NCBI GenBank assembly: GCA_947585425.1
Contig: CANPWZ010000005.1
Span: forward strand, 40,506 to 104,505
Length of the DNA: 64,000 bases
Direction of reading: 5' to 3'
Source: an uncultured Oscillospiraceae bacterium
GTDB lineage: Bacteria; Bacillota; Clostridia; Oscillospirales; Oscillospiraceae
Within the stretch, counting starts at the first letter, position 1. Each line of letters begins with the position of its first letter. The notes beneath the pieces were generated by a model. It had not been told where the DNA came from. It searched no databases and saw only the letters and a program-made list of their open reading frames with translations. A program made the position numbers and the translations under genes. This document shows, one piece after another, positions 13,386-32,814 of this stretch.

Positions 13386-15787
13386 AGCTCATAAGCTGCC
13401 ACATCATAAACTTCGGCGGGCTGGCAGGATACGACTGCCGGTTCGACCCCGGGCTCACCGTGCTGATGGAGCCCAACGGGTCCGGAAAGACCACCCTGGC
13501 CGAATTTATCCGCGCCATGTTCTACGGATTCCCCCGCGCCAGCAGGGATCTGGAGAAGAACCGCCGGAAGAAATATCTGCCCTGGCAGGGCGGGACATAC
13601 GGCGGGAACCTGGTCTTTGAGCACGAGGGGGTCCAGTATCGCATCGAGCGCGCCTTCGGGGAGCGCCCCGCGTCGGACACGTTCGCCCTTTACGATCTGA
13701 GGACGAACCGGCGGTCCGACCGGTTCAGCGAAAACATCGGGATAGAGCTCTTTCAGCTGGACGCGGACTCCTTCGAGCGCAGCACCTATCTGCCCCAGCT
13801 CCGGTCCGACATCGCCTCCCTCTCCACCGACAGCATCCAGGCCAAGCTCGGCGATCTGGTGGACGACACCAACGACGTCAACAACTACGAGGCCGCGCGG
13901 AACGTCCTGCTGCGGAAGCGGAGCGCCCTTATCCCCTTCCGGGGCGCGGGCGGCCTGGTCGAGCAGGCATATGCGAAGGTCTCGGAGCTGGAGGAGCGCA
14001 TCAGCGCCGCCAAGGGCGGGAGCGAAACGCTGGCCGCCCGGCGGGACGCCCTTTCCGCCGCGAAGGAGGCGCTGGATCGGAAAATCGAGGAGCGCGACGG
14101 CATCCTGGAAAAGATCAGTCAGGCGTCCCAGGCGGCCGGCCGCAAGGGAGTCATGGACCGCTGGCGGCAGCTCCGGGACGAATTCGACCGGGACCGCGCC
14201 AGGGAGAGACAGCTTGCGGAGCGGTATCCTGAGGGCTTCCCCGGCGCGGAGCAGGTGGAGCTGGCCGTCCGGGCCGTGGACGGCGCGGCGGAGCTGAGCG
14301 TCCGGCTGGAGCCCTCCCAGGAATATCTGGCCGCAAGATCCCGGCTGGACGCTGAGACGCGGTTCGCGTCCGGGGTCCCCTCCGAGGACGACTTTCAACA
14401 CTATCAGGCGCTCTGCTCCACCTATGAGGAGACCAGAGCGAGCCTCCGGGACGCCGCCCTTCCGGCGGAGGATGCGGACAGGCTGGCGCGGCTGGAGGAG
14501 CTCTTCTCCCCCGCCGTGTCCCGGGAGCCGCCGCCGAAAACCGGCTGGGCCTCCCTCGCCGTGCTGATCCTCGGCGTCCTCTCCGCCGCCGCCGGCGCGG
14601 TCCTCCTCTTCCTGCGCTTCTACGCGGCGGGCGGCTGTCTGGCCGGCCTGGGGGTCATCCTCCTCATCGCCGCCGTCTATCTCCGCCTGAAGGATATGCT
14701 GGGCCGCGCGGTCACGGGATCCGACCTCGCCGTCAAGCGGCAGCAGTACGCGGATCTGAAAGCGCGCCGGGACGCGGCCGCCCGGCGGGCGGAGGAGCTG
14801 ACGGAAACGCTCGAAGCGCTGGGCGGCGACATCGCCGCCTTCCTGGCCCCCTATGCGGGCAGCGTCGCGCCGGATGAGTTCAGGCCACAGCTCAACGCCC
14901 TGCAGGTGAGCTGCGGCAGCTACCTGCGCGACAGGGAGCTGGTCTCCGGCCAGGACGCCCAGCGGAGGGAAAACGAGCGCTCCCTGCGCGAATGCCGGTC
15001 CGTGCTCTCCGCTTTTTCCCAGCGGTACGGCCTCTCCGGCGATCTGACCCGCGACGCTTTGCAGGGGATAAAGGCAGACATCCGTGAGCACGCCGCCCTG
15101 GAACAGAGCCTTGAGAAAAAGAAGCGGGAGCTGGGCGCCTACTATCGGGAGAACGAGTCCATCCTCACCCTGCCCGAGGCGGACGAGGGGTATGACCTCG
15201 ATGAACTGAAAGCCGCGGAAGCCCGGTCGAACGGCGAGATCAAGGAGCTGTCCAGCCGGATCTCCGAGCTGGAGCGGTCCATCCGGGAATTGCAGGAGGA
15301 GGCCGATCAGATCCCGGCCCTGGAGGACGAGCAGGCCGGCTGGATCGTGAAGCTTGACGAGGGCAGGAAAAACGCCGCCCTGCTGGACGCGGCCATCGGC
15401 TTTCTGGAGAGGGCAAAGGAGAGCCTGTCGGCCAGCTATCTCACCCCCATCCGGCAGGCGTTCGACGGCTACCTCCAGCGGCTGACCGGCGAGTCCGCCG
15501 GGCACGTCAGCATCGACCCGGCGCTGGACGTCACCATGGAGCGCGGCGGGGCGGCCCGCGAGATCAAATACTTCAGCGCGGGCCAGTCGGACGCCGTTAT
15601 GCTCTGTATGCGCCTGGCCCTGGTGGACGCCCTGTTCAAGGGCGCGGAGCCCTTCCTCATCCTGGACGACCCCTTCGTCAACCTGGATGACGAGCGCACG
15701 GCCGCCGCCACCCGCCTCTTAAAGGACCTGGCCAGGGATCGTCAGATCATCTACCTGGTCTGCAACAGCAGCCGCGGCGTATCATAA
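13382..15787 (+). CDS. SMC/Rad50-like ATPase (SbcC/YhaN-like) partner of the upstream exonuclease
   Basis: Walker A EPNGSGKTTLAEFI, coiled coil with central hydrophobic segment, FSAGQSDAVMLCMRLAL signature, FLILDDPFVNLDDER Walker B; overlaps upstream gene by 4 bp. Confidence 0.88.
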   Translation: MKLISCHIINFGGLAGYDCRFDPGLTVLMEPNGSGKTTLAEFIRAMFYGFPRASRDLEKNRRKKYLPWQGGTYGGNLVFEHEGVQYRIERAFGERPASDTFALYDLRTNRRSDRFSENIGIELFQLDADSFERSTYLPQLRSDIASLSTDSIQAKLGDLVDDTNDVNNYEAARNVLLRKRSALIPFRGAGGLVEQAYAKVSELEERISAAKGGSETLAARRDALSAAKEALDRKIEERDGILEKISQASQAAGRKGVMDRWRQLRDEFDRDRARERQLAERYPEGFPGAEQVELAVRAVDGAAELSVRLEPSQEYLAARSRLDAETRFASGVPSEDDFQHYQALCSTYEETRASLRDAALPAEDADRLARLEELFSPAVSREPPPKTGWASLAVLILGVLSAAAGAVLLFLRFYAAGGCLAGLGVILLIAAVYLRLKDMLGRAVTGSDLAVKRQQYADLKARRDAAARRAEELTETLEALGGDIAAFLAPYAGSVAPDEFRPQLNALQVSCGSYLRDRELVSGQDAQRRENERSLRECRSVLSAFSQRYGLSGDLTRDALQGIKADIREHAALEQSLEKKKRELGAYYRENESILTLPEADEGYDLDELKAAEARSNGEIKELSSRISELERSIRELQEEADQIPALEDEQAGWIVKLDEGRKNAALLDAAIGFLERAKESLSASYLTPIRQAFDGYLQRLTGESAGHVSIDPALDVTMERGGAAREIKYFSAGQSDAVMLCMRLALVDALFKGAEPFLILDDPFVNLDDERTAAATRLLKDLARDRQIIYLVCNSSRGVS

Positions 15788-15883
15788 GGCGTCCCGCGCC
15801 CCCGCCGGTCACCGATCCCCCGGCGGCCGCCCGTGGGCCCAGGCTGTCATACATCGATCAAAACAAGTACAGGAGATGGAAGC

Positions 15884-16828
15884 ATGGCAAAAAAGCCCGT
15901 TTTAGTGGTCATGGCCGCCGGCATGGGCAGCCGATACGGCGGATTGAAGCAGATCGACCCCGTGGGAGCGCACGGCCAGTTGATCATCGACTATTCGATC
16001 TACGACGCCCTCCGCGCCGGTTTTGAGACGGTGATCTTCGTCATCAGCCGCCGCATCGAGGAGACCTTCAAGGCCGCCATCGGCGACCGGCTGTCCAGGG
16101 TCATCGACGTGAAGTACGCCTTCCAGGAGCTGGACGACTTGCCGGCGGGCTGCTCCGTGCCCGCGGGCAGGGTAAAGCCCTGGGGCACCGCCCACGCCGC
16201 CCTGGCCGCCCGCCGGCTCATCGACGGCCCCTTCGCGGTCATCAATTCCGACGACTACTACGGCCCCCGCAGCTATAAAATGATCTACGACTACCTCTGC
16301 GGCCATCCCGACGGGGACCTCTATGAGTACGCCATGATCGGCTATCTGCTGAAAAACACCGTCACCGAGCACGGCACCGTGGCCCGGGGGGTGTGCGAGG
16401 TGGACGGCGGCGGCTATCTGACCTCCGTGGTGGAGCGGACTAAAATCGCCAAGGACGGGGACGACGCCCGGTATACCGAGGACGACGGCGCCACCTGGAC
16501 CCCCCTCTCCGGCGGCACGGTGGTGTCCATGAACCTGTGGGGCTTCCACCGAAGCTTTCTGGACGAGGCGTGGGCCAGGTTCCCGGCGTTTTGGGAGGAG
16601 ACGATGGCCAAAGACCCGGAAAAGGGAGAATATTATCTCCCCACCGTGGCCAGCCAGCTCACCCATGAGGGCAAGGCCCGGGTGAAGGTGCTCACCAGCG
16701 GCGACAAGTGGTACGGCGTCACCTACAAGGAGGATAAGCCCGCCGTGGTGGCCGCCATCGCGGACCTCACCGCCCAGGGGCTCTACCCCGACGCCCTGTG
16801 GGAAGGAGCTCAAAAGGGCCGGGGCTGA
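15884..16828 (+). CDS. Nucleotidyltransferase family protein (sugar-phosphate NTP-transferase-like)
   Basis: MAKKPVLVVMAAGMGSRYGGLKQIDPVG and INSDDYYG motifs; AGGAG upstream of ATG 15884. Confidence 0.85.
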   Translation: MAKKPVLVVMAAGMGSRYGGLKQIDPVGAHGQLIIDYSIYDALRAGFETVIFVISRRIEETFKAAIGDRLSRVIDVKYAFQELDDLPAGCSVPAGRVKPWGTAHAALAARRLIDGPFAVINSDDYYGPRSYKMIYDYLCGHPDGDLYEYAMIGYLLKNTVTEHGTVARGVCEVDGGGYLTSVVERTKIAKDGDDARYTEDDGATWTPLSGGTVVSMNLWGFHRSFLDEAWARFPAFWEETMAKDPEKGEYYLPTVASQLTHEGKARVKVLTSGDKWYGVTYKEDKPAVVAAIADLTAQGLYPDALWEGAQKGRG

Positions 16829-16855: not shown

Positions 16856-18130
16856 ATGAATCATTTGGCCGTGACGTCCATGCTCATTGCGGTCACGCAT
16901 ATTCTCTGGTTTGCCGCCATGACCGAGCGGAAATACTCTGTGAGAAAAACCGCGTTGATCTACGGAGCGCTTGTTGTGTTCTTTATCGTCTGGGACCTGC
17001 TGATCTATGCGCTGCTCGGCATCGACTCGCCGTACTTCGTGTCCGCCATGTTTTCCGGCACGATCATCGTTTCGCTGTTTGTGTTCCTCATGACCTCGTC
17101 CGACGCGTTCTGCAAAAAGCTGTTTATGTTCCTCAGCTACGCGAACCTGTTTTGTATCTTTTACTGCGCGTCCGCTCTGATATGCGGCGCGCTTTTCCCC
17201 GCGCTGTCCGACGCCGGGATGGCGTACGCGCGGACGCTCACAAGGACGCTGCTATATATCCCCACGATCGCGGTATACCTCAGGTTCCTCCGCCCCTATG
17301 TGCGCACGGTGCCGGGAGAGCAGAAAAGGACCTGGTATTCCATTTTGCTGGTCTCAGCGTTGTTTCTGATCATCAACGCGATCTTTGTGACCGTGTTCTT
17401 CCTTCCTTCTACGCACACGGCCCCGTCCGTTCTCCTGTTTATCACCTTTACGCTGGTCTATTGCGCCGTGCTGTGGGTCATTTTTGATATTATCCGGCAG
17501 ATACGCGCGGAAAGCCAGCGAAAACTGGCCGTCAAAAATGTGGAGTATCTGCAGGGGCAGCTGGTCATGGCCAGAGAAAACGCATTGGCGACCAAAGCCA
17601 TGCGCCACGATTTCCGGCACCATATGCAATATATCGACCGGCTCCTGAAAGGGGAGAACGTGCAGGAGGCGACGCGTTATATCGAGGAGTTTATCAATGG
17701 CCTGGACGCGGCGAGCCAGCTTGATTTTTGCCCCCATATTACGGTCAACGCGATCCTGAACAGCTTTTACAACAAAGCGCAGAAAGAGGGGATCTCTATT
17801 TCTGTGACGGCCGATCTGCCGGAGCATACGGCGATCGCCGACATGGATTTTGTTGCGATCCTCTCAAACCTTCTGGAAAACGCGGTAAACGGATGTGTGG
17901 AATGCGGCTCCCACGGCGAGATCAAGGTAAATATCCGCACGAAAAAGGGAAAGCTTGTGATCGTGTGCAGCAACCCCTGTAAGCCGGACCTTGTGATCGA
18001 AGACGATATGATCAAGCCGAAAGGGACGGGCATCGAAAGCGTCCTGATGGCCACCGAGAAATACGATGGGAATATCCGTTACCAGCTGGAAGGCGGGATC
18101 GTGACGGTATGCGTCGTCCTCAACTGCTGA
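16856..18130 (+). CDS. Multi-TM sensor histidine kinase, GHKL/AgrC-like
   Basis: N-terminal hydrophobic segments, AMRHDFRHHMQYIDRLL phospho-acceptor region, DFVAILSNLLENAVNGC N-box, GTGIESV G-box. Confidence 0.88.
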   Translation: MNHLAVTSMLIAVTHILWFAAMTERKYSVRKTALIYGALVVFFIVWDLLIYALLGIDSPYFVSAMFSGTIIVSLFVFLMTSSDAFCKKLFMFLSYANLFCIFYCASALICGALFPALSDAGMAYARTLTRTLLYIPTIAVYLRFLRPYVRTVPGEQKRTWYSILLVSALFLIINAIFVTVFFLPSTHTAPSVLLFITFTLVYCAVLWVIFDIIRQIRAESQRKLAVKNVEYLQGQLVMARENALATKAMRHDFRHHMQYIDRLLKGENVQEATRYIEEFINGLDAASQLDFCPHITVNAILNSFYNKAQKEGISISVTADLPEHTAIADMDFVAILSNLLENAVNGCVECGSHGEIKVNIRTKKGKLVIVCSNPCKPDLVIEDDMIKPKGTGIESVLMATEKYDGNIRYQLEGGIVTVCVVLNC

Positions 18131-18159
18131 ACAAATACATGATGATCGGATCGACGGGA

Positions 18160-18193
18160 AAAAGAGCGGCCAACGTCGCCGGCCGCTCTTTTT
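18160..18193 (+). terminator. Rho-independent terminator after the histidine kinase gene
   Basis: aaaagagcggcc-aacgtcgcc-ggccgctctttttt. Confidence 0.8.
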
Positions 18194-18247: not shown

Positions 18248-18311
18248 TTTCACGCAGAAAAAAGAGTGTTTCACGCAAAAAGCGGCCTTTCTGAGTGTTT
18301 CCTCTTATAAT
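18248..18311 (+). promoter_or_regulatory. Candidate LytTR-type direct-repeat operator and promoter
   Basis: TTTCACGCA at 18248-18256 and 18269-18277 (21-bp period), then TATAAT at 18306-18311. Confidence 0.65.
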
Positions 18312-18336
18312 CAATCATTATTTGGAGGTGCCTGAT

Positions 18337-18411
18337 ATGGACATCAACAAGACGACCATTCTGGATATGTTTGAAGCGACCGGCTTTATCGCCATACTCG
18401 CCGTCGAATGA
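18337..18411 (+). CDS. 24-aa micro-ORF resembling the C-terminus of the STAS protein encoded at 32874-33170
   Basis: MDINKTTILDMFEATGFIAILAVE* versus ...VNETIREVFEVTGFIDILTIE*; TGGAGG upstream; stop overlaps the next ATG (ATGA). Confidence 0.55.
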   Translation: MDINKTTILDMFEATGFIAILAVE

Positions 18412-19798
18412 AGCGGGAAACGAGCATGAAACTGCTGGAGCAGACTGCCCGGGAGGCAAAGGCGGACAGGCGGCTGGAGGACGTCGCCGTTTTACATATC
18501 AACCACTGCATGGACAACACCTTCTCCTTCAACGATGTACTGCGGAGCCTGTTTGGCCATGTGACGCTTGTGACGCCGCCTTACAGCAATCAGGATATTC
18601 CCGAAGGATACCCGGGGCCATGCTACCACGGCATGCGGCAGGGCGGCGTCTATCGCCTGATGAGGAACCAGGCGGAGCTGGGGCGCGGCGGCATGGGATT
18701 TCAGGAGGCCGCCCTGGCCTTGATGGAGGAGGCGTTCCGGCGGGAACTGATCCCTCTGCTGCGCGGGGGGAAAAAGCTGCTGATCATCGAGGACGGCGGC
18801 TATCATTTTGAGGCGCTGCCCCGGGTGAAGGAACTGTTCCCGGATGTGGAGAGCAGGATCATCGGCGTAGTGGAGCAGACCACCTCCGGCACCCGCCGGA
18901 GTATGAGCCGGCAGGGATACCAATACGCCTATCCCTGTGCCAGCGTCGCCCGGTCGGACATCAAAATGAATGTGGAGTCCATTTTCATCGGGCAGCGGAT
19001 CGTGGAGGAGCTGGGGCTGATGCTCTATGCGGCGGACGCCTTTTCCCCTTCCACTCCGTACTGCTGGTAGGCTATGGCGTCGTGGGGCGCAGCTGCCGCA
19101 TGGCGCTGGAGGGGCGGTTCTGCCGGATAGAGGCCTACGATACCGATCCGGGCGTCCTGAGGGCGGCGGAGAAAGACGGCCTGCGCGCCTATCCCGACCC
19201 GGATCCGGCCATGTTTTCGGGGGATACCATCGTGATCGGATGCGTGGGCAGGCCCTCTTTTGGGGAAGGGCTGTTCCGCGCCTTTCTTGACGGACAGGGG
19301 ACAAATCTCTATCTGGCCAGCGGCTCCTCTAAGGACGTGGAGTTTTCCTGGCTTTTGCGGTACCTGGCGGGAAAAGAGGCGGAGATCCCCGGGCTTTCAC
19401 TGGAAGCGCAGGAGGCGGCGGAGTGGCATACCTGTTACCGTTTCCGCTATGACGGCGCCGAAAAAAATGTGTATATCATGGCGGAAGGGAAGCCGGTGAA
19501 CTTTTACCGGGAGGGCGTGATCAGCCTGACCTACCGGGTGATCGACCTGGTGTTCACAGAGATGCTTCAAATGGCGCTGTACCTGTGCCGTGACCGGGAC
19601 CTCCCCCCTCGGCTGTATATCCTGGGAGAGGACAACGCCATCACCAGGGCGGTCTCTGAAAAGGAACTGCTGGACCGATGGTTCCGGGAAAACCGCTTTT
19701 GGCGCCAGGGGGAGCTGGAAACATTCCTGCGGCCCCATCCCCTGGCCGCTGAACTCAGGAAAACCACATGGGAGAAAGAGCATGGAGAAGATCATTAA
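18408..19798 (+). pseudogene. Adenosylhomocysteinase-like NAD-binding protein, split into two frames (18408-19070 and about 19050-19798)
   Basis: First frame has GVVEQTTSGTRRSM...NVESIFIGQRIVEELGLML; second frame, read upstream of the ORF start, gives HSVLLVGYGVVGRSCRMAL...IEAYDTDP Rossmann motif. Frame changes at TTTTCCCC (19041-19048). Confidence 0.65.
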
Positions 19799-21551
19799 AC
19801 GGACATTTTTCAGATTCTTCGGCCCTACGTTGGTGGCGTCGCTGGCGTTGGCCGTCGTCTCTATGACCGATCTGATCGTGGCCGGCCAGCTTCTGGGCGG
19901 CAGCGCGTTTACCGCGATCAGCCTGGCGCTGCCGGTGACCATATTTGTCCAGATCATTGCCGCTGTTTTCGGAGGCGGCGCGGGGATCGTGCTGTCCAAC
20001 CTTTTAGGCCAGGGGGAGCGGGAACACTGCGACCGGGTGTTCACCGCCGCGCTGGTCTCGGCGGCGGCCATAGGCGTCGCGGCAGCGGCGCTGGGCCTGC
20101 TGTTTTTAGACCCGCTGATCCTGCTGCTGGGCGGCCAGCCCGGGGCGGGCATGGACGCCGCCCGCCAGTATATCGGGATCCTGCTTCTGGGGCTGCCCTT
20201 TTTGATCCTGGCGCCGGTCCAGCTCACCTTTCTGCGCAATGACAGCAACCCTCGGTACTCTATGTTTTGCGTGCTGGCGGGCGGCGTGTGGAACCTGATT
20301 GCTAATCTCTCTCTGGTGCTGCTGTTCGATCTTGGGATCGCGGGCATCGCGGTGGGTACGGTCACATCGCAGCTGCTCAGCTGCTTCCTCTCAGGCCGGA
20401 AGCTCTACCGAAAGGGCAGCAGCTTCCATCTGACGGGAAAGCCCTGCTGGTCCTTTTCCGCCGTCCGGGAGATCGCCTTGCCCGGCCTGCCCGCCGCCAT
20501 GATCTTTTTCTTCCAGGTGGTGCTCACCGTGGTGATCAACCGCACGCTGGCTCTTACCGGAGGCGACAGCGCGGTGGGGGTATACGCGGTGGTGAAGTAC
20601 CTGATCACGTTCCTCTACGCCTTTTATGATGGCGTTACCGGCGCTGTTCAGCCCATGCTGGGCGTCTACCGGGGCGAAGGAGAGATCGGCAATCTGCGCC
20701 GCACGGTTTCCGTGTCCTTTCGGATCATGCTGCTGATGTCGGTGGGGATCACCCTGCTGCTGGAATTGGGCGCCCCGCTGTTCTGCGTGATCTTTGGCGT
20801 GGAGCAGGAGATGCGGGAGATCACGATAACAGCGATCCGGATCCAGGCGCTGTTTTGCATCACCGCCGGGATCCTGGCCTATTTGGGGGCGTTTTACCGC
20901 TGCACCGGCCATGCGGGCGTGGCGATGGTCATTGCCGCATGCGACAACCTGATCTTCCCGGTGTCCATTATCCTGCTGCTGGCGAATTTCACGCCCCTGG
21001 GCAGCAACAGCGTCTACTGGGGGCTGGTGTTTGCGGATTACGCTACGCTGCTGGTCCTGTTCTGCGCCTTGCCCGTCTCCCGCAGGGAGGGAGAGTCCCC
21101 GCTGCTGCTGGTCCCCGTTCAGGACGTCCAGGATGGAGCCGTGTTCCAGGTGCTGATCCAGGACAAATATGAGGACATTCCCAAAATTTCTGCGGAAATC
21201 GACGATTTCTGCGAGGAACACGGCGTACCGATGAAGAAACAGTACACCATATCCCTGTGTATGGAAGAACTGGTGGTCAACGTCATCCAGATGGGATTTC
21301 GCAGGGAACAGGGCAACTACATCGACATCCGGGTATCGGTACTGCCTGACCAGCGGGTGGTCCTGCGCATCCGGGATGACGCGGTGGAGTTTGACCCCAC
21401 CCAGTCCCATGAGGCGTCGCTGGACGACCTGATGGACGGCTCCCACCAGGAGGATCACAACGAACTGGGTCTGCTCATGGTAAAAAAGATGGCGCAGTCC
21501 TATTCGTATAAACGTACGGTTGGATTTAATGATTTTATGGTGGTGCTTTGA
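19782..21551 (+). CDS. MATE-family transporter with C-terminal RsbW/HATPase-like domain
   Basis: About 12 hydrophobic helices starting MEKIIKRTFFRFFGPTLVASLALAVVSMTDLIVAGQLLG; C-terminus has N-box CMEELVVNVIQMGF, IRDDAVEFDPT and NELGLLMVKKM. Confidence 0.85.
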   Translation: MEKIIKRTFFRFFGPTLVASLALAVVSMTDLIVAGQLLGGSAFTAISLALPVTIFVQIIAAVFGGGAGIVLSNLLGQGEREHCDRVFTAALVSAAAIGVAAAALGLLFLDPLILLLGGQPGAGMDAARQYIGILLLGLPFLILAPVQLTFLRNDSNPRYSMFCVLAGGVWNLIANLSLVLLFDLGIAGIAVGTVTSQLLSCFLSGRKLYRKGSSFHLTGKPCWSFSAVREIALPGLPAAMIFFFQVVLTVVINRTLALTGGDSAVGVYAVVKYLITFLYAFYDGVTGAVQPMLGVYRGEGEIGNLRRTVSVSFRIMLLMSVGITLLLELGAPLFCVIFGVEQEMREITITAIRIQALFCITAGILAYLGAFYRCTGHAGVAMVIAACDNLIFPVSIILLLANFTPLGSNSVYWGLVFADYATLLVLFCALPVSRREGESPLLLVPVQDVQDGAVFQVLIQDKYEDIPKISAEIDDFCEEHGVPMKKQYTISLCMEELVVNVIQMGFRREQGNYIDIRVSVLPDQRVVLRIRDDAVEFDPTQSHEASLDDLMDGSHQEDHNELGLLMVKKMAQSYSYKRTVGFNDFMVVL

Positions 21552-21568
21552 CCTGACCGCCGGAAAGG

Positions 21569-23953
21569 ATGGAAACCATGAGGGAAATATTTACTGTTTT
21601 CCGAAAGAAAGAGACCTGGGGGCATATGCTGCTCAGCGCCGTGGTGTTTTTCGCCATCGCCCTGCCGTTCCGCAGCCTGTTCACCCTTCTGCCGGGCGTG
21701 ACGGAAATCCGGCCGGCCAATATGGTCCCGATCGTATTTGGGATCCAGTTCGGCCCCGCGGCCGCCTGGGGCATCGCCATTGGGAACCTGATCTCCGATT
21801 ACCTGTCAGGCTCCAACCCTTTCATCTGTATCACAGGGTTTTTGGTCAACTTTTTTTATGCCTACATCCCGTATAAGCTGTGGTATACCCTTCGTATCGG
21901 GAAGGAGCCCATCCATCCGGTGCGCCTGAACACGGTGCTGGAGATCGTCAAATATATCCTGGTGGTCCTGATCGATTCCTTCATCACCACTGTGTCCCTC
22001 TCTCTGATCTTCGAGGCGGCGGGGTTCCAGTCGTTTTCTTCTTCGTTCCCGCTGCTGTTTTTCAACAATTTCGATTTCGCCATCATTTTGGGCATTCCGG
22101 TGCTGTCTTTTTGGAACAAGACCCATCTGCGTTCTGTGGTGCCGGAGTATCGGGAGGACGCGACGCCCCGGCGCGGCGTCCATTGGCTGGATCTGCCTCT
22201 AATCGTCATCGCCGCCATCGGGGCGGGATACTTCTTCTATTCCCTCCTCCGGGGCGGCGCTGTGATGAACAGCTCCCTCGCATTGGGATTCCTCTGCGCG
22301 GCGCTGGCAGGACTGCTCATCTACGCGTTCCGCCCGGCGGGGAAAGTGGAGCCTCTGCCCGCCCGCAGGGAGGGCGTCAAGATCTCCATCAAGGCGAAAG
22401 TGACCATCGGCTTTCTGCTGATGACGCTGATCTTCCTGATCCTGCTGGCGATCGTGTCCTATACCGCGCTGCAGGTCGGGGGCGAGCTGAACCGCCTGGA
22501 GGTTTGGAACTATATCTATCTGGTGCTGGGTATCACCATCAATCTGCTTTACGGTGTCGCTATCCTGTTTTTGTGGTATGTGGAGCGGAATATCACCACC
22601 CCTGTGGAGCGCCTTTCCGACCTTACGGAACTGTACGCCAGGCAGGAGCATAAGCACGAGAAAAACCTCGCGCAGAGCCTGCAGCAGCTGGCGGACACCA
22701 TCCCCCAGGGGGATGAGATCGGCGCGCTGGCAGTGTCCTTCCGAAACATGGTGGGCGAGCTGGATGAATACATGGTGAACCTGGCCGCCGTAACGGCGGA
22801 CAAGGAGCGCATCGCCACGGAGCTGAATGTGGCCACCCAGATCCAGGCAAGTATGCTGCCCTGCATTTTCCCCGCCTTCCCGGGCCGAAAAGAATTTGAC
22901 GTTTACGCTACCATGACGCCGGCGAAGGAGGTAGGAGGAGATTTCTACGATTTCTTCCTGGTGGATGACGACCACCTGGCTTTGGTCATGGCCGACGTAT
23001 CCGGCAAAGGGGTGCCGGCGGCGCTGTTTATGGTCATCGCCAAAACCCTGCTGAAAAATGCCGCCCAGACCGGCATGTCTCCCAAGGAGGTCTTGGAGAA
23101 GGTCAACAACCAGCTCTGTGAAAACAATGAGGCGGAGATGTTTGTCACGGTCTGGCTCGGGATCTTTGAAATTTCCACAGGAAAGCTGACGGCTTCCAAC
23201 GCGGGCCACGAATATCCGGCGGTCAGACATAGGGACGGGAAATTCGAGCTGTATAAGGACAGGCACGGCTTTGTGCTGGCCGGTATGGAGAACGCGCGCT
23301 ACCGGGAGTACGAGATGGATCTGGGCGCGGGAGACACCCTGTTTGTGTATACCGACGGCGTGGCGGAGGCCACCGACGCGGAGAATACCCTGTACGGCAC
23401 GGATCGGATGCTGGCAGCGCTCAACCGGGACGAGGACGCCGAACCCGAAGCGCTGCTGCATACCGTGAAAGAGGACATCGACGCGTTCGTGGGCAGAGCG
23501 CCCCAGTTTGACGACATCACCATGCTGGCGCTCAAAATAAAAGATGTCCCCTCCAAAAAGATGAAAAAAATGGATGTGGCGCCGCAGCTGAGCAGTATCG
23601 ACGCCGTGATCGCTTTTTTTGAGGAGTGCCTGAAGGAACAGGGCGCTCCCACGAAGGTCGTTTCGCAGGTCGACGTAGCGATAGACGAGATTTTTTCCAA
23701 TATCGCCCGATACAGCGGGGCGACTGCCGTTTCGGTGGGCTGCGCGGCGGAGAAGAACAGCGTCGTGCTCCGTTTTGCGGACAATGGCCGTCCCTACGAC
23801 CCGACGGAAAAGGCGGACCCGGACGTTACGCTTTCGGCGGAGGAGCGGGACATCGGCGGACTGGGCATTTTCATGGTGAAAAAAACCATGGATGAGGTCC
23901 AATATCAGTATGAAGATGGATCAAACATCCTGACCATTCAAAAGCGCTGGTAG
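21569..23953 (+). CDS. Membrane SpoIIE/RsbU-type PP2C phosphatase with C-terminal HATPase (RsbW-like) domain
   Basis: ECF-transporter-like N-terminal TM region, second TM/HAMP-like region, PP2C (ELNVATQIQASMLPCIFPAFPG, PAKEVGGDFYDFFLVDDDHLALVMADVSGKGVPAALFM, LFVYTDGVAEATDAENTLYG), then HATPase (VAIDEIFSNIARYSG, FADNGRPYDPTEKADPD, GGLGIFMVKKTMDE). Confidence 0.92.
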   Translation: METMREIFTVFRKKETWGHMLLSAVVFFAIALPFRSLFTLLPGVTEIRPANMVPIVFGIQFGPAAAWGIAIGNLISDYLSGSNPFICITGFLVNFFYAYIPYKLWYTLRIGKEPIHPVRLNTVLEIVKYILVVLIDSFITTVSLSLIFEAAGFQSFSSSFPLLFFNNFDFAIILGIPVLSFWNKTHLRSVVPEYREDATPRRGVHWLDLPLIVIAAIGAGYFFYSLLRGGAVMNSSLALGFLCAALAGLLIYAFRPAGKVEPLPARREGVKISIKAKVTIGFLLMTLIFLILLAIVSYTALQVGGELNRLEVWNYIYLVLGITINLLYGVAILFLWYVERNITTPVERLSDLTELYARQEHKHEKNLAQSLQQLADTIPQGDEIGALAVSFRNMVGELDEYMVNLAAVTADKERIATELNVATQIQASMLPCIFPAFPGRKEFDVYATMTPAKEVGGDFYDFFLVDDDHLALVMADVSGKGVPAALFMVIAKTLLKNAAQTGMSPKEVLEKVNNQLCENNEAEMFVTVWLGIFEISTGKLTASNAGHEYPAVRHRDGKFELYKDRHGFVLAGMENARYREYEMDLGAGDTLFVYTDGVAEATDAENTLYGTDRMLAALNRDEDAEPEALLHTVKEDIDAFVGRAPQFDDITMLALKIKDVPSKKMKKMDVAPQLSSIDAVIAFFEECLKEQGAPTKVVSQVDVAIDEIFSNIARYSGATAVSVGCAAEKNSVVLRFADNGRPYDPTEKADPDVTLSAEERDIGGLGIFMVKKTMDEVQYQYEDGSNILTIQKRW

Positions 23954-23976: not shown

Positions 23977-25650
23977 ATGACAAGGAAAAAAACGATCTGC
24001 CGGCTGGGAGCGCCGCTCCTTGCGCTGGTCCTGGCGCTGTCCTGCCTGGCGGGATGCGGTGCGAAAAAACAGCGGGAGGATATTGTGATCCTCTATACCA
24101 ACGACGTCCACTGCGCGGTGGACGCCGACATAGGGTATGCGGGGCTTGCGGCGTATAGAGACTGGGTGAAGGAGAAAACGCCCTATGTCGCCCTGGTGGA
24201 CTGCGGCGACGCCTTGCAGGGGGACGCCATCGGGACCGTGTCCCAGGGGGAATACCTGGTGGACATTATGAATCAGGTGGGGTACGACTTCGCGGTGCTT
24301 GGCAACCATGAGTTCGACTATGGCATGGAGCAGCTTTCCACCCTTCTGGAAAAGGCGGAAGCCCAGTATCTGGGCTGCAATATCCGATATACCGGGGAGG
24401 GAAACAGCGCTGTTTCGGCTCTCAAACCCTACGAGATCGTTTCTTACGGCGGTACAGACGTAGCGTTCGTGGGCGTTTCCACCCCGGAGAGCATCATCAA
24501 GTCCACACCCGCCTATTTCATGGATGAGTCGGGCAGATTCGTCTATGACTTTTACGGCGGCAGCGGGGATACGCTGTACGCGCAGGTGCAGGAGACGGTG
24601 GACCAATGCCGGGAAGCGGGCGCCGATTATGTGGTGGTCCTGGCTCACCTGGGAGACGACGAGGGCTCCGCCCCCTTCCGTTCCACCGACCTGATCGCCG
24701 GCACAAACGGCATCGACGCGGTTTTGGACGGCCATTCCCACAGCGTGCTTCCCTGCGATGTGGTGGAGAATAAGGACGGGGACAAGGTGCTGCTCTCCTC
24801 CACCGGCACGGGACTCGTCAATATCGGCCAGCTGGTCATCACTGCCGACGGCAATCTCACCGCCGGCCTGATCGGCGATTTCCCGGACAGGGATGCGGAA
24901 ACCGACTCCTTTGTGAAGGGGATCCAACGCCAATACGAGGCGGAGCTGGAACAGGTGGTGACCCACACCGGCGTGTCTCTGACCACCGTGTCGGAATCCG
25001 GCATCCGCCTGATCCGCAACCGGGAGACGAACCTTGGCGACTTCTGCGCCGACGCCTATCGGACGATCGCCGGGGCGGACATCGCCTTTGTCAACGGCGG
25101 AGGCATCCGGGCGGATATGGCAGCCGGAGACGTCACCTATGGGGACATCATCGCCGTCCACCCGTACGGCAATACGCTCTGCGTCGCCGAGGCGACCGGC
25201 CAGGAGATCCTGGACGCGCTGGAAATGGCCAGCCGCTCTACCATGGCGGAAACCGACGACGGTGACGACGCCGTGGGCGAAAACGGCGGGTTCTTACAGG
25301 TGTCGGGACTGAAATACACCATCGACACCTCGATCCCCTCCACCGTGGAGGTGGACGAAGTGGGGATGTTCCTCTCCTGCGGAGAAAACCGCCGGGTCAA
25401 GGATGTGCAGGTGCTGCAGCAGGATGGCGGCTACGCGCCCATCGATCCGGCCAAAACTTATACGCTGGCCTCCCACAATTACCTGATCAAGCAGGGCGGC
25501 GACGGGTTGAATATGTTTATGGACAACACCCTGACCATGAACGAGGGGATGCTGGATTATCAGGTGCTCATCACCTATGTCACCGACCATCTCGGCGGCA
25601 CGGTGGGAAGCGATTACGCCCAGCCGCAGGGGCGGATCACCGTATCATAA
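23977..25650 (+). CDS. Secreted 5'-nucleotidase/metallophosphatase lipoprotein (UshA-like)
   Basis: Lipobox LAGC; IVILYTNDVHCAV, VDCGDALQGD, LGNHEFDYG, FVNGGGIRADM motifs. Confidence 0.9.
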   Translation: MTRKKTICRLGAPLLALVLALSCLAGCGAKKQREDIVILYTNDVHCAVDADIGYAGLAAYRDWVKEKTPYVALVDCGDALQGDAIGTVSQGEYLVDIMNQVGYDFAVLGNHEFDYGMEQLSTLLEKAEAQYLGCNIRYTGEGNSAVSALKPYEIVSYGGTDVAFVGVSTPESIIKSTPAYFMDESGRFVYDFYGGSGDTLYAQVQETVDQCREAGADYVVVLAHLGDDEGSAPFRSTDLIAGTNGIDAVLDGHSHSVLPCDVVENKDGDKVLLSSTGTGLVNIGQLVITADGNLTAGLIGDFPDRDAETDSFVKGIQRQYEAELEQVVTHTGVSLTTVSESGIRLIRNRETNLGDFCADAYRTIAGADIAFVNGGGIRADMAAGDVTYGDIIAVHPYGNTLCVAEATGQEILDALEMASRSTMAETDDGDDAVGENGGFLQVSGLKYTIDTSIPSTVEVDEVGMFLSCGENRRVKDVQVLQQDGGYAPIDPAKTYTLASHNYLIKQGGDGLNMFMDNTLTMNEGMLDYQVLITYVTDHLGGTVGSDYAQPQGRITVS

Positions 25651-25660
25651 GCGGAGCGAG

Positions 25661-26392
25661 GTGAGCGGAGTGCTGCGCATAGGGATATGTGATGACGATC
25701 AGGAGGACATCGATCAGATCGAAGGGCTGGCCACCCGCTTTGCGGAAGAACATCCCGAGACGCCTTTGCAGATACAGACGTACAGATCGCCGTATGACTT
25801 GCTGGACGATGTAGAAAAAACAGGCGGATTTGACCTGTATCTGCTGGACGTCGTTATGCCGCATATGACCGGCGTGACTTTGGCCAGACGGCTTCGGGAG
25901 AGAAAAGAGCGGGCGGAGATCCTGTTTTTGACCGTTTCCAAAGAATACGCGGTGGACGCTTTCAGCGTAAAGGCTTCCGGCTATCTGATCAAGCCGGTGG
26001 ACAGATCGGATTTTGACGACGCGGTATCTGACTGCATCCACCGGCTGTCCCCGGAAAACAGCTCGTCTCTCATGCCGAAATCAAAGAACGGTCTCCAGCG
26101 TGTGCCGGTCTGCGATCTGGTGTTCGTGGAGAGCTTTAATCACAAGCAGATCTGTACGTTATCTGACGGCTCCACGCTGGAGACGTCGGTGACCCTGGCA
26201 GAGCTGATGGACGCGTTGAAGGATCATCCCGCTTTTGTCCGGCCCCACAGAGCCTATATCATCAACATGGATTTTATCCGCAGGCTGACCGCCCATGAGC
26301 TGTTCCTGACAAACGGAAAACGGATCCCGGTCTCCCAGAGCGGATATGGGGAGCTGAAAAACGCGTATTTCGCCTATATGGCCCGCACTTAA
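25661..26392 (+). CDS. LytTR-family response regulator
   Basis: Receiver domain LRIGICDDDQEDIDQ...LYLLDVVMPHMTG...VKASGYLIKPVD; LytTR domain CDLVFVESFNHKQICTLSDG...FVRPHRAYIINMDFIRRL. GTG start at 25661 or 25670. Confidence 0.88.
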   Translation: MSGVLRIGICDDDQEDIDQIEGLATRFAEEHPETPLQIQTYRSPYDLLDDVEKTGGFDLYLLDVVMPHMTGVTLARRLRERKERAEILFLTVSKEYAVDAFSVKASGYLIKPVDRSDFDDAVSDCIHRLSPENSSSLMPKSKNGLQRVPVCDLVFVESFNHKQICTLSDGSTLETSVTLAELMDALKDHPAFVRPHRAYIINMDFIRRLTAHELFLTNGKRIPVSQSGYGELKNAYFAYMART

Positions 26393-26406: not shown

Positions 26407-26470
26407 TTTCACGCAGAAAAAGCGCCGTTTCGCGAAAAAAACCGCTTTTTCTGCGTTTTTCTTTTATACT
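26407..26470 (+). promoter_or_regulatory. Second candidate LytTR-type direct-repeat operator and promoter
   Basis: TTTCACGCA 26407-26415 and TTTCGCGAA 26428-26436 (21-bp period), TATACT 26465-26470; same geometry as 18248-18311. Confidence 0.62.
26412..26465 (+). terminator. Terminator-like hairpin after the LytTR regulator, overlapping the direct repeats
   Basis: CGCAGAAAAAGCG ... CGCTTTTTCTGCG perfect 13-bp inverted repeat followed by tttttctttt. Confidence 0.6.
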
Positions 26471-26534
26471 GATAAAAGGGGAAAAATGTTTGATCGGAGA
26501 GGTCCAATATTCACAGTAGAAGATGGTGAACGGT

Positions 26535-26888
26535 ATGAAATGGTTTCGAAAAAGAAAAGAAAAAAGGGCGCCGCTGAAATTCGGGGACGCCGCCCGCTTC
26601 AACTGGGCGCTGGACACGAACCGCGAGCTTCAGGACGGGATGGCGAAACTGGCGGAAGAATTCCCCAATCTGACGGAAGAGAGCTATACCCAGAGAGCAT
26701 TGGAACTTTATAGAAAAGCGGGCCTAGAATTGAGCGCGGAGGACTTAAAGATGCTGCTGGCGCTGCGCCAGGAGACCGACTGTATGCTTCTGCGAAAGAA
26801 AAGAGGGGATAAGAATGACGATGAAAATGCGGCGGATCCCCGCGCTGCTCCTGACGGCGCTGCTGCTGACGGGATTGACCGGATGTAA
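26535..26888 (+). CDS. Small charged hypothetical protein
   Basis: MKWFRKRKEKRAPLKFGD...; 3' end overlaps the downstream lipoprotein gene. Confidence 0.5.
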   Translation: MKWFRKRKEKRAPLKFGDAARFNWALDTNRELQDGMAKLAEEFPNLTEESYTQRALELYRKAGLELSAEDLKMLLALRQETDCMLLRKKRGDKNDDENAADPRAAPDGAAADGIDRM

Positions 26889-27543
26889 AAAGACCGTTCC
26901 TGACACTGGGGCCCTGTGGAAGGCCGCTATGCAGGACGCGGTTTTCAGTGAGGATGAGGAGATCCACGAACTGGTGGAGCTGACAAAGGACGACAGCCGG
27001 GTCATCTGGGACGAGGCCGGAGAGCGGGTGCTGCTGCTGAGCTGGCATGACTATGACGACGCCTGCGCGCCCGGCGGATCGATCCGGACGGAATACGGGG
27101 ATGTGTGGGCCGTCTCCGCCGGGGAGATGCAGGCGTGGTATGAACAAAACCACAGCGGAGTGGAAAACTGGGAGCTGCGGTTCGCCCAACTCCTGGGCGT
27201 TCACGAGGACGAGGGATATACCCGCTTTACCGCCTTCTGGGTCTCTCCAGAGGATGTGATCCGCCCGGCCTATGTCACCGATGTGACAAAGCAAATGGAA
27301 AACGACTACGCCGCCGTGACGGATGAGGCGTATCGGGAATGGTTTGACGGCAACATCCTCTGGTCGTATTTTGAGAGCGATTATCCCTGGACGCGGCTCG
27401 GCTACACCTATGACTGGAGCGGCGGAGGATCGGAATACGGGCTGACCGAATTTTTGGTCGCCGACGGCGGCAAGGTCGAGATCGTCTTTACCTGTTCCAC
27501 CGCGGAATTTGTAGATCGGCTGGAAGAACAGGCGCAAAAATAA
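26815..27543 (+). CDS. Hypothetical lipoprotein
   Basis: Signal peptide with lipobox LTGC. Confidence 0.7.
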   Translation: MTMKMRRIPALLLTALLLTGLTGCKKTVPDTGALWKAAMQDAVFSEDEEIHELVELTKDDSRVIWDEAGERVLLLSWHDYDDACAPGGSIRTEYGDVWAVSAGEMQAWYEQNHSGVENWELRFAQLLGVHEDEGYTRFTAFWVSPEDVIRPAYVTDVTKQMENDYAAVTDEAYREWFDGNILWSYFESDYPWTRLGYTYDWSGGGSEYGLTEFLVADGGKVEIVFTCSTAEFVDRLEEQAQK

Positions 27544-27566
27544 CAAAAAATAGGGAGAAATGGACT

Positions 27567-27761
27567 ATGGAGACCAAATGCGACAACAAACGGGACTGCC
27601 CCTGCACCTACGACTGCCCGCGGCACGGCAAATGCTGCGCCTGCGTGGCCCATCACCGGGATCACGATGAAGGAGTGCCGGGCTGCTTCTTTTCCAAGGA
27701 GGCGGAGGCGACCTATGACCGAAGCATCGAAGCGCTGGCCAGGGACCACGGTATCATCTGA
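27567..27761 (+). CDS. Small Cys-rich protein (DUF6485-like)
   Basis: METKCDNKRDCPCTYDCPRHGKCCACVAHHRDHDEGVPGCFF; family call from memory. Confidence 0.65.
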   Translation: METKCDNKRDCPCTYDCPRHGKCCACVAHHRDHDEGVPGCFFSKEAEATYDRSIEALARDHGII

Positions 27762-27808: not shown

Positions 27809-29398
27809 ATGATAAGCATTCGCGATGAAGAATTTAGGCTGTCCGCGCCGACGATCGACGCGGTATCCGAGATCTGCGTGCAGACGCTTTCCGAGGCGGG
27901 GGCGGATAAAAAGGATATTATCCGCATCCGCCTGTCCCTGGAGGAGATCCTCGGCGTCTGGCTTGAATCGCTGGAGGGCGCTTTGGTCCATGTGGACTGC
28001 GGGCAGAAATTCGGACGGGCCTTTTTGAAAATCAGCGTAGACGGTCCGGCCCTGGACGCATGGGACAACGAGGCGTTGGTGTTCAGCAGCCATCTGCTCT
28101 CCCAGGCGGGGCTGTCGTTTACATACGCCTATAAGAACGGGAAAAACTGTCTGGTCTGCAACCCCAGGAAGAAAAAGTCGTCCATGGGCCAGCTCGCCGT
28201 GCTGATTGGCGCGGTCGTCCTGGCGGCATTCCTGGGCGCCGCCGCAAGGCGGTTCCCGGCCATACAGACAGCGGCCCTCTCGGTCACGGAACCCCTGTTC
28301 AATATGATCCTGGGCGCGCTCCGGGCGGTGTCCTCCCCGCTGGTGTTCCTGGCTGTCTGCTGCGGGATCGTGAGCATCGGCGATCTGGCGGTAGTGGGCA
28401 AAGTCGGCAAAAAACTGTTCCTGAGGATGTTCGCGGGGACGTTTATCCTGGGGACGATCATGGCGTTGGCGGGCAGCCTGCTGTTCCCTGTGGCCGCGGA
28501 GGCGGGCAGTCAGATCTCCGGCAATTTTTCGGCCATCTATCAGATGGTGCTGGATATTGTGCCCTCGGACGTCATCTCGCCGTTTATGAACGGCAACGCC
28601 CTGCAGCTCGTCTTTTTGGGCATCTGCGTGGGAGCCGCCCTTTTGATACTGGGCGAGCGGGTATCGACGGCCCAAAATACTCTGCTGCAGATGAACGACG
28701 CCGTACAGTTCCTGATGAGCGCGCTGGGAAAAGCCATTCCGCTGTTCGTGTTCCTGAGTCTGTTCAACCTTGTCATCTCCGACTTTGACAGCGGATTTTC
28801 CAGCCTGTTCAAGGTGTTTGCGCTGGCGATACCGGCGTGCTTGCTGGTGCCGCTGTTTTACGTCTTTTGGGCGGCGTTTCGGCTGAAGGTCAGCCCTGCC
28901 CTGCTGTTGCGGAAACTGCTGCCGACGTATCTCATCGCCCTGACGACGGCTTCCTCGGCCGCCGCCCTGGCGACGAATCTGGAGACATGCGTCAAGGAAC
29001 TGGGCATCCCGAAAAAGGTGGCGGATTTTTCTATCCCGCTGGGACAGGTGCTCTATAAGCCGGGCTTTGTGGCCGCCCTTTCTATCCTGGACCTGTGCAT
29101 GGCGGAGTCCTATGACGTCCCCATCACGCCGCTGTTCCTGGTCATGTCGGTTTTGACCATCGGGCTTCTTTCCATGGCGGTGCCGCCCATTCCCGGCGGA
29201 TCCCTTTCCGTGTTCACGGTCCTGTTTGCGCAGCTTGGTATCCCCAGTGAGGCCATCGCCCTGGCGGCCGCGGTCAACGCCATCATGGACTTCTTTATGA
29301 CGGCCGCCGGCGTGGCCTGCCTGCAGATCCAGGTGACGCTGGCGGCGGACGGCGTCGGGATGCTTGACAAAAACAAGCTGAAAAGGAGCGTGTCATGA
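27809..29398 (+). CDS. SDF-type dicarboxylate/amino acid:cation symporter with N-terminal HATPase-like domain
   Basis: N-terminus [28 protein letters not shown]...[12 protein letters not shown] resembles a degenerate RsbW N-box; C-terminal symporter with [30 protein letters not shown]. Confidence 0.8.
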
Positions 29399-32300
29399 TG
29401 GGAAACGATCGATTTTTCAGAAAGCATGATAAGAAGCTCTGCCTGGCCCTGGCGATCATCCTGATATGCCTGCTCCTTGGCGGCTGCGCGAAAAGCGCCG
29501 GGAACAGCGAGGCGATCACCGACATCCGCCAGCTGGACGGGCAGGCCATGGGCGTGTTGACCGGCTCCAGCTTTGACGTCATGACCGACGAACTGCTCGA
29601 GGGCACGGACAAGCAGTATTACGACCGGATCCCGGATCTGGCTCTGGCGGTGGAACAGGGAAAGATCGCCGGGTTTTTGATGGACGAACCCATCGCCCGC
29701 CTGCTTTGCCTGGAAAACCCGGCGGTGACCTATCTCCCCGATGTGCTGGTGGAGGAGAGCTACGCCGCCGCGTTTTCCAAGACCGACCGGGGCGCCGCGC
29801 TGCGGGACGAGTATGACGAATTTCTGGCGCAAATCAAGGCGGACGGCACCCTGGAGGAGATCGACGGCATCTGGCTGGGCGCCGACGAGAGCAAAAAAGT
29901 GGTGGAGGACTGGACAGCTTTCCCGGCGGACAACGGCGTTGTTCGGATGGCGGTGAAAACGGACTTGGCGCCCTTCTGCTATATCCTGAACGGCCGGATC
30001 GTCGGGTACGACATCGACATCATGGCCCGCTTCTGCAAGGCCTATGGCTACGGGCTGGAAGTGACCAGCGTGGAGCTCTCGTCTATTTTCACAGGCCTTG
30101 CCACCGGTACCTACGACGTATCGGCCGTCGGCATAACCGTGACGGAGGAACGGGCGGAAAGCGTGAATTTCGCCGAGCCCAATTACACCGGCGGCGTGGT
30201 GGCGGTGGTCGCAAACCGCGGTCAATTTGAGGCGCGCTTCAAAACGTTCCAGGATTTTGCGGGCACGACCGTGGGCGTTATGTCGGGCAGCATTTCGGAC
30301 GAGCTTGTCAGCGCTGTGGTCAGCGGCTGCGAATTCAAGTATTACGATGACGCTACCACTTCGTTTCTGGCGCTCCAGTCGGGCACGCTGGACGCCGTGG
30401 CGCACGATATGCCCGTCGCCCAGCTGGCGGTGGCCAGGCAGCCCGATCTGGCCATATTCCCCGAAACGGTGACGCCCGACATCTACGGCCTGGGCCTGCA
30501 AAAGGACAGCCCGCTGACGGATCAGATCAGCGCCATCATCGAACGATATACGGAGGACGGCACGCTGGACGCCCTGCGGGAGAAATGGCTGAGCGCCGAC
30601 GACAGCAAAAAGACCATCGATGTGGGGGAGTACGACGCGCCCAACGGCACCCTGCGGTATGCCCATGACTCTACGCTGGAGCCTATGAGCTATGTGGGCG
30701 GGAACGGCCAGTCCCTTGGATATGAGGTGGAGCTGGTCACGCTCATCGCCAAAGAGCTGGGGATGAAGCTGGAGATCACCCAAAGCACCTTCAGTTCGCT
30801 GATCCAGATGCTGAGCAGCGGCCGGGCGGACATCGTGTCCGGCGCCATGAGCATCACCGACGAGCGGAGGCAAAGCATCGATTTCCCCACCTCCCACTAT
30901 GTGGGCGGCATGGTGCTCGTCGTCCGGGGCGAAGATATTGGCATGGCCGTTGAGGCGGAAAAAACGGACTTCTGGACCGCGCTGAAAAATAGCTTTTATA
31001 AGAACTTCATCCAGGAAAACCGGTGGCAGATGATCCTCTCCGGCCTGGGCGTCACGTTTGTCATCTCGTTCTTTTCCGCCCTGTTCGGCACGGTGCTGGG
31101 CTTTGGCCTGTGCCTGCTGCGCCGCAGCCGCAACAGGATCGCCTCCGGCGTCGCGGCGGTCTTTGTCCGGCTGATCCAGGGGGTCCCCGTCCTGGTGCTG
31201 CTGATGGTGCTGTTCTACATCGTGTTCGCCGGCGCGAGACTGGACGGGATCGTCGTGGCCATCATCGGCTTCACCATCAACTTCGGCGTCTATGTCTCCG
31301 AAATGATCCGCACCGGCATCGACGCCGTGGATGTTGGCCAGTGGGAAGCGGCGTCCGCCATGGGCTTCGGACGGGTCAAGACCTTCACAAAGATCATCAT
31401 GCCCCAGGCGGCGCGGCATATCCTGCCGGTGTACAGGGGCGAATTTATCTCCATGGTGAAGATGACGTCTGTGGTGGGGTATATCGCGGTGGAGGACCTG
31501 ACCAAGGCGACCGACCTCATCCGCAGCCGGACCTTTGAGGCGTTTTTCCCGCTGATACTGACCGCGGTGCTGTACTTCCTGCTGGCATGGTGCCTGACCC
31601 TCCTGCTGGGGCTGGTGGAGCGGAAGATCGATCCCCGCCGCCGGCGCCGGGAGCCAAAGGGTGTCGACAGGAACACCTCCCTGCCGGAAGCCCCGGAGGG
31701 GCCGAAGCCCGCCCAGAGCGAAGGGGCGCTGATCACCATTTCCCATTTGAAAAAGGCATTCCCCAACGCGACGCCCCTGAAGGACGTCAACGCCGTCATC
31801 AACCAGGGGGACGTCATCTCCATCATCGGGCCCTCCGGCACGGGCAAAAGCACCCTGCTGCGCTGCATCAACCGGCTGGAAACGCCGACGGAAGGACAGA
31901 TCGAGGTGTTTGGCCAGCCGGTGACCGGCGTGAAGCCGGCGCAGCTTGGCGCCGTGCGCCGCCGCATGGGAATGGTGTTCCAGAGCTTTAATCTGTTCGC
32001 CCATCTGACGGTGATCGAAAACATCATGCTGGGGCCGGTAGAGCTGCTTGGCTGCACCCGGCAGCAGGCCTATGAACGGGGGATGCGTCTGCTGTCCAGC
32101 GTAGGTCTGGCGGAAAAGGCGCTCAACTATCCGGATGAGCTCTCCGGCGGTCAAAAACAGCGTGTCGCCATTGCCCGCACTCTGGGGATGCAGCCGGAGA
32201 TCGTGCTCTTTGACGAGCCGACCAGCGCGCTGGATCCCACCATGGTGGGAGAGGTGCTGGCGGTCATCCGCACCCTGGCCGGGCAGGGGCTGACCATGCT

Positions 32301-32814
32301 GATCGTGACCCATGAGATGAAGTTTGCCCGGGATGTATCCACGCGGGTATTTTACATGGACCAAGGCGTTGTTTACGAGGAGGGGACGCCGGAGCAGGTG
32401 TTCGATCACCCGAAGACCGACCGCTGCCGGGCGTTTGTCCACCGCCTGAAGACCCTCCATCTCGACATCGCCTCCAAGGAGTTCGACTTTATCGGCGCGG
32501 CGGCCGACATCGACCGCTTTGCCCGCAAGCAGCTGCTGAGCGCGCGGCAGTCCCTCAAGTACCAGCAGATCTTTGAAGAGCTGTGCGTGACGAGCATCCT
32601 GCCGGCCCTGCCGGACGACGGGTGCAGCCTGAGTTTTGACGCCCTTTGCAGTGAGGACGGAAACGAATGCGAAGCGGTCATCCGCTGGGATGGGGAAGCG
32701 TTCGATCCGCTGACGCAGGGAGACGAGCTGAGCGCGGCTCTGGCTGTCAGCCGGACCCGGAGCAGCAGGCACGCCTATGCCGACGGGGTCAACACGGTAA
32801 CGATTGTATTTTAA
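29395..32814 (+). CDS. Single-polypeptide polar amino acid ABC importer: lipobox, two SBP_bac_3 domains, permease, ATPase, degenerate HATPase-like C-terminal domain
   Basis: Lipobox LGGC; two periplasmic-binding-like repeats ([75 protein letters not shown]); permease [38 protein letters not shown]...[31 protein letters not shown]; ATPase [47 protein letters not shown]; about 120-aa tail with [14 protein letters not shown] and [12 protein letters not shown]. Confidence 0.85.

Follow-up and report, generated by a model that had tools for sequence, protein, structure and literature searches.

Two direct repeats stand in front of the first operon of this cluster: do they form a binding site, and if so, for which protein and with what effect? 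In the window, the 64,000-nucleotide stretch of DNA analysed here, the sequence TTTCACGCA occurs at 18248..18256 (distal repeat) and 18269..18277 (proximal repeat) on the forward strand, to which all window features described below belong.

Architecture of box 1 and its predicted promoter

The two copies are separated by a 12-bp spacer (period 21) and form box 1. As described in an earlier note on this DNA, 28 bp lie between the end of the second copy and TATAAT (18306..18311), the −10 element of predicted promoter 1, which is found 58 bp from the box start. The lack of a −35 element that the note reported is borne out: no sigma-70 −35/−10 pair is detected at box 1, and CGGCCT occupies the −35 slot, 17 bp upstream of TATAAT. 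Further downstream, GGAGG (18324..18328) probably serves the first ORF as ribosome binding site. On the upstream side, an inverted repeat after the kinase gene (AAAAAGAGCGGCC-9-GGCCGCTCTTTTT, 18159..18193) probably acts as a terminator between that gene and promoter 1.

LytTR sites typically consist of two repeats of 9–11 nt with spacers of 11–13 nt and share no common consensus (PMC4847170), and the repeats of LytTR Regulatory Systems (LRS) mostly have 12 bp between them and a gap of 10 bp to the −35 element (PMC6193735), in agreement with what the earlier note had said about such sites in general. The 9-N12-9 arrangement found at 18248, and again at 26407 (see below), falls within this range. 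By itself, the box 1 pair is weak evidence, because with the motif left unspecified an exact 9-mer repeat at shift 21 arises by chance in 23% of Markov-simulated 64-kb sequences. The match extends to 14/16 positions (GTATTTCACGCAGAAA / GTGTTTCACGCAAAAA); repeats of at least 14/16 at this shift are seen in about 3% of Markov simulations, and three further places of this quality exist within the window. When the motif is specified beforehand, shuffled sequences contain no 9-N12-9 pattern. The pair alone is thus not compelling; the comparison with other loci and genomes is.

A second box overlaps a terminator-like hairpin

While the two TTTCACGCA copies of the earlier note stand, a third at 26407..26415 had been overlooked. 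It opens box 2, TTTCACGCA-N12-TTTCGCGAA (proximal repeat, 26428..26436), 14 bp past the stop codon of the LytTR gene. The −10 element of predicted promoter 2, TATACT (26465..26470), lies 58 bp from the start of box 2, the identical offset to that of box 1. A scan of the 2.0-Mb genome, as the note had proposed, finds TTTCACGNA-N12-TTTCRCG only at boxes 1 and 2.

Likewise overlooked was a terminator-like hairpin across box 2 (26411..26456), formed by a perfect 14-bp inverted repeat (arms 26411–26424 and 26443–26456) with a T-run next to it. A simple terminator scan calls no terminator at box 1 or box 2, and its loop limit of 8 places the box 2 hairpin outside its reach. The fold energy is −22 to −25 kcal/mol in the window, G401, and G741. 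Over four genomes, 94% of cells pair, compared to 48–65% in slid controls, and two pairs are changed on both sides; 28 of 500 shuffles pair as well as the real alignment. As there are four sequences only, the apparent covariation is suggestive at most. It is conceivable, if rather doubtful, that box 2 packs three functions into about 60 bp, as LytTR operator, as promoter, and as terminator for the operon of the regulator itself, with the distal repeat and the spacer making the 5′ arm of the hairpin. If so, the bound regulator could influence whether transcripts of the LytTR gene end there or run on into the transporter operon, and could also start that operon.

Repeat spacing and −10 geometry are conserved among related loci

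Exact TTTCAYGCA-N12-TTTCAYGCA is present in 4 of 401 genomes of the same family, the window's genome included. Scanning GTDB genomes with TTTCAYGCARAAAN8TTTCAYGCA yields 37 loci, among them L056 and L066 (Oscillospiraceae), which carry the boxes of two of the four exact-match family members. Some of the 37 loci are tandem or array repeats unrelated to LytTR. By eye, L055, L057, L058, L060, L073, L076, L082, L087, and L089 were rejected as tandem or array repeats, and L059, L068, L085, and L090 were set aside as probable chance matches.

In 520 kb of related loci, a set that is box-enriched by construction and from which the control spacings were also taken, 32 repeat pairs occur at spacing 21 and 0–4 at each other spacing from 12 to 39. 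A −10 element of at least 5 bits lies at offset 58–61 in 30 of 49 boxes and at about one per offset elsewhere, the set of 49 retaining some likely chance matches (e.g., L039–L043). These 30 boxes, like both boxes of the window, are located just upstream of the −35 position. Setting the −10 element at −12 puts the predicted starts of the window near 18318 and 26477; the proximal repeat then covers about −49 to −41, and the empty −35 slot comes right after it. Pooling the 49 boxes gives the consensus sequences YnTTTCAYGCARAAAA (distal half) and TTTCAYGMA (proximal half).

By eye, boxes in L056, L062, L069, L071, L075, L079, and L080 lie directly upstream of genes whose products have signal-peptide-like N-termini, which suggests that secreted or surface proteins may be common targets of these LytTR systems. 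A different arrangement is seen in Fictibacillus sp. BK138 (L058, L073, L092, L109), where many dispersed non-coding arrays consist of TTTCACGCA-like units with a 21-bp period. Each array opens with ACGGTACGTGTT...ACACGTTCRCGCA, and the 99 array matches in this one genome are found without a close LytTR relative.

The boxes accompany a clade of LytTR regulators

The boxes are found near genes for LytTR-domain regulators. A tree of 53 LytTR proteins places the window protein in a group of 12 rows, clade I (SH-aLRT 99), whose other members are 42–75% identical to it and nearly all come from genomes carrying TTTCACGCA-type boxes. Nine of the 12 LytTR genes have a box no more than 3.5 kb away, and the other three genomes have C-type boxes elsewhere. 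A five-row group, clade II (99), comprises genomes with TTTCATGCA. The majority of the genomes compared were selected for carrying a box, so that box presence was mostly a selection criterion; the C or T form was not. Since both groups are single clades, the agreement between C/T form and LytTR group counts as one contrast, not as many. Among the fixed differences between clade I and clade II proteins is His161 versus Arg, a position within the LytTR domain. No further LytTR protein of the window's clade is present in a sample of 399 genomes from the phylum. At L161:7495–7532, another 21-bp direct repeat, TTTGACGCAAAACGAC, lies upstream of a LytTR gene with 36% identity, which suggests that the box sequence may change along with the regulator and that the period is retained.

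In L062, L063, L067, L071, L077, L078, and L083, the box sits next to a LytTR gene that is accompanied by a kinase gene. The distance from LytTR stop codon to box is 14 bp in the window, 15 bp in L117, 28 bp in L129, and 16 bp in L156; the last two loci were picked by LytTR homology alone, with the box unused, and serve as blind tests. A matching cluster, in an uncultured Roseburia MAG (L116/L117), encodes a LytTR protein with 75% identity to that of the window and shares the SAHH, MATE-HATPase, SpoIIE-HATPase, 5′-nucleotidase, LytTR, 242-aa protein, symporter, and ABC genes. Its box 2 occupies the same place as in the window, past the LytTR stop, and its box 1 is found before a second MATE gene, some 4 kb away from STAS on the upstream side and not directly before it; the L117 kinase is only distantly similar to the window's kinase. 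In the first of the two blind-test genomes, G741 (LytTR 51% identical), TTTCACGAA-N12-TTTCACGAA begins 28 bp past the LytTR stop and is followed by a homolog of the 121-aa protein. In the second, G208 (73% identical), TTTCACGCG-N12-TTCCACGAA lies 16 bp past the stop and is followed by the 121-aa, 64-aa, and symporter genes. A third genome picked by LytTR homology, G106 (50% identical), offers a poor candidate box only. We estimate the probability of a chance match at most 40 bp from a given stop to be on the order of 1 in 10,000, based on the control rate in the 520-kb set, where the 27 other spacings together give 32 matches.

Gene content of the cluster

A histidine kinase with a GHKL ATPase domain (16856..18130; HATPase_c_5, Pfam) is encoded in the cluster, 7.5 kb from the LytTR gene. 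By this cluster membership it is the probable partner of the regulator; kinase and LytTR genes adjoin in relatives. The first ORF after box 1 (MDINKTTILDMFEATGFIAILAVE, 18337..18411) has 24 codons, which correspond to the start and the end of a 98-aa STAS gene that is intact in the Roseburia MAG (L116:14231–14527); relative to this gene, most of the middle is deleted in frame. A role as leader or signal peptide was dismissed for this STAS remnant. The following adenosylhomocysteinase-like (SAHH) gene (18399..19798), delineated by tblastn with the intact L116 protein, is frameshifted near 19040 into ORFs 18408–19070 and 19082–19798; it gives weak NCBIfam matches under the cut-off, and its L116 counterpart is a single open frame (14524–15927). 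The damage in these first two operon genes, which the earlier note had passed over, may reflect either decay or assembly error.

Further along, Pfam matches identify a MATE transporter with a C-terminal HATPase_c_2 domain (19782..21551, start codon estimated) and a SpoIIE phosphatase with a HATPase_c_2 domain and a QueT-like membrane part (21569..23953). Each of these two proteins (19782–23953) thus bears a C-terminal kinase-like ATPase domain, and the related cluster contains a STAS gene. They may represent parts of a partner-switching system fused to transporters and placed under predicted LytTR control. A secreted 5′-nucleotidase-like protein (23977..25650; Pfam, NCBIfam) precedes the LytTR response regulator (25661..26392), the predicted binder of both boxes, which matches Response_reg and LytTR in Pfam and has Asp63 as phospho-acceptor. 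Regulators of the LRS type lack a receiver domain and have a membrane inhibitor; this protein has a receiver domain.

The first genes after box 2 (26523..27761) encode proteins of 121, 242, and 64 aa, in an order conserved in L117, L129, and L156. They are followed by a sodium:dicarboxylate symporter family protein with an N-terminal extension (27809..29398; Pfam) and by a fused amino-acid ABC transporter (29395..32814; Pfam). The latter combines two substrate-binding domains, permease, ATPase, and an extra C-terminal part in a single 1139-aa protein. An ATPase domain ('hat') considered for the symporter and ABC proteins lacks Pfam support and was discarded.

A predicted LytTR switch and its alternatives

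Taken together, the repeats very probably form the operator of an activator-dependent promoter that is bound by the cluster's own LytTR response regulator, as the earlier note had suggested. Boxes near orthologous or related LytTR genes, the strict 21-bp period, the conserved −10 offset, and a box type that tracks the clade all point in this direction. Against it stand the C-type boxes of G148 and G411, which have no close LytTR relative, the poor candidate box of G106, the three clade I genes whose genomes carry their boxes elsewhere, the low similarity of the L117 kinase, and the choice of most genomes by presence of a box. In response to a presumed signal, the kinase, probably that of 16856–18130, would phosphorylate Asp63 of the regulator. 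The regulator would then occupy both half-sites, which are two turns of the helix apart and so face the same side of the DNA, and compensate for the missing −35 element by recruiting RNA polymerase to TATAAT. Box 1 is predicted to drive the STAS-remnant, SAHH, MATE, SpoIIE, 5′-nucleotidase, and LytTR genes. As the LytTR gene would belong to this operon, the regulator would raise its own level, making autoregulation probable. Box 2 would drive the downstream transporter genes, the extents of both operons being predictions.

The sign of regulation cannot be read from sequence, and LytTR-family repressors are known, among them PlnD (PMC2714321). A regulator that binds these operators but represses, or acts differently at the two boxes, is nevertheless unlikely: the promoters lack a −35 element, and the boxes, whose offset is conserved, end right before the −35 slot, the usual position of an activator. 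Moreover, characterised LRS direct repeats just upstream of −35 are autoactivating (PMC6193735). Considerably less probable is that another protein, either a LytTR paralog of a different clade or an unrelated regulator, binds the boxes and that their linkage to the 25661–26392 gene is indirect. G148 and G411 indeed have a C-type box without a close clade I LytTR relative, and the LytTR gene beside the box belongs to another clade in L067 and L078; in L067, a second LytTR type stands next to a C-type box. However, four genomes have the box immediately behind the LytTR gene, the C or T variant tracks the LytTR clade, and those LytTR paralog loci of the window's own genome that were examined carry no box. 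Finally, that box 1 is a chance repeat or a tandem-duplication relic without regulatory role, as the 23% of simulations might suggest, is scarcely credible in view of box 2 with the same −10 offset and the conservation across genomes, and the strict spacing peak and the −10 offset comparison argue strongly against a chance origin of the boxes.

Under the favoured assignment to the cluster's own activator, each box would be part of a LytTR operator–promoter pair of known kind, whose box consensus appears to be new and undescribed. A literature search, with subscription papers mostly outside its coverage, returned no paper containing both LytTR and TTTCACGCA or TTTCATGCA. TTTCAYGCA-N12-TTTCAYGCA with a −10 element at 58–61 would allow targets of two Clostridia LytTR clades to be predicted from sequence. 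A test of LytTR specificity is naturally provided by repeat position 6 (C or T), which tracks the clade together with fixed differences in the protein, His161/Arg being one of them. In addition, transporters and a SpoIIE phosphatase with kinase-like ATPase domains, an unusual grouping, come under one predicted switch.

Comparison with known LytTR systems

The site of YpdB in Escherichia coli has an 11-bp spacer and a period of 21. At the yhjX promoter, YpdB, a receiver-LytTR activator as proposed here, recognizes GGCATTTCAT direct repeats (PMC4847170), which share the core TTTCAT with the T-type box. In contrast to the YpdB site, the window has TTTCACGCA without GGCA before the core, and it belongs to a different host phylum. 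Further differences from the window are that only one target of YpdB is known and that its kinase is of the LytS type (PMC4847170).

The sites of HdrRM and BrsRM of Streptococcus mutans are likewise direct repeats of 9 bp that closely precede the −35 position, in most cases with 12 bp between them. The regulator activates its own operon, as proposed for the window; the repeat consensus, about ACCnCTTAT, is unlike that of the window (PMC6193735). The gap to the −35 position is mostly 10 bp in these systems and about 5 bp in the window, assuming a 17-bp spacer. Moreover, the HdrRM/BrsRM regulator is paired with a membrane inhibitor, whereas the window combines a receiver domain with a kinase.

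Compared with the agr system of Staphylococcus aureus, no peptide-signal genes are seen in the window's cluster, and the short ORF that follows box 1 is what is left of a STAS gene, not a signal peptide. The repeats recognized by AgrA also differ in sequence from those of the window. AgrA, an activator of receiver-LytTR architecture, binds a pair of direct repeats immediately ahead of the agr P2 and P3 promoters (PMC4227749). Like those of the window, these promoters have a poor −35/−10 arrangement; in P2 and P3, however, both elements are present, at spacings of 18 and 20 nt (PMC4227749), while the promoters of the window lack the −35 element.
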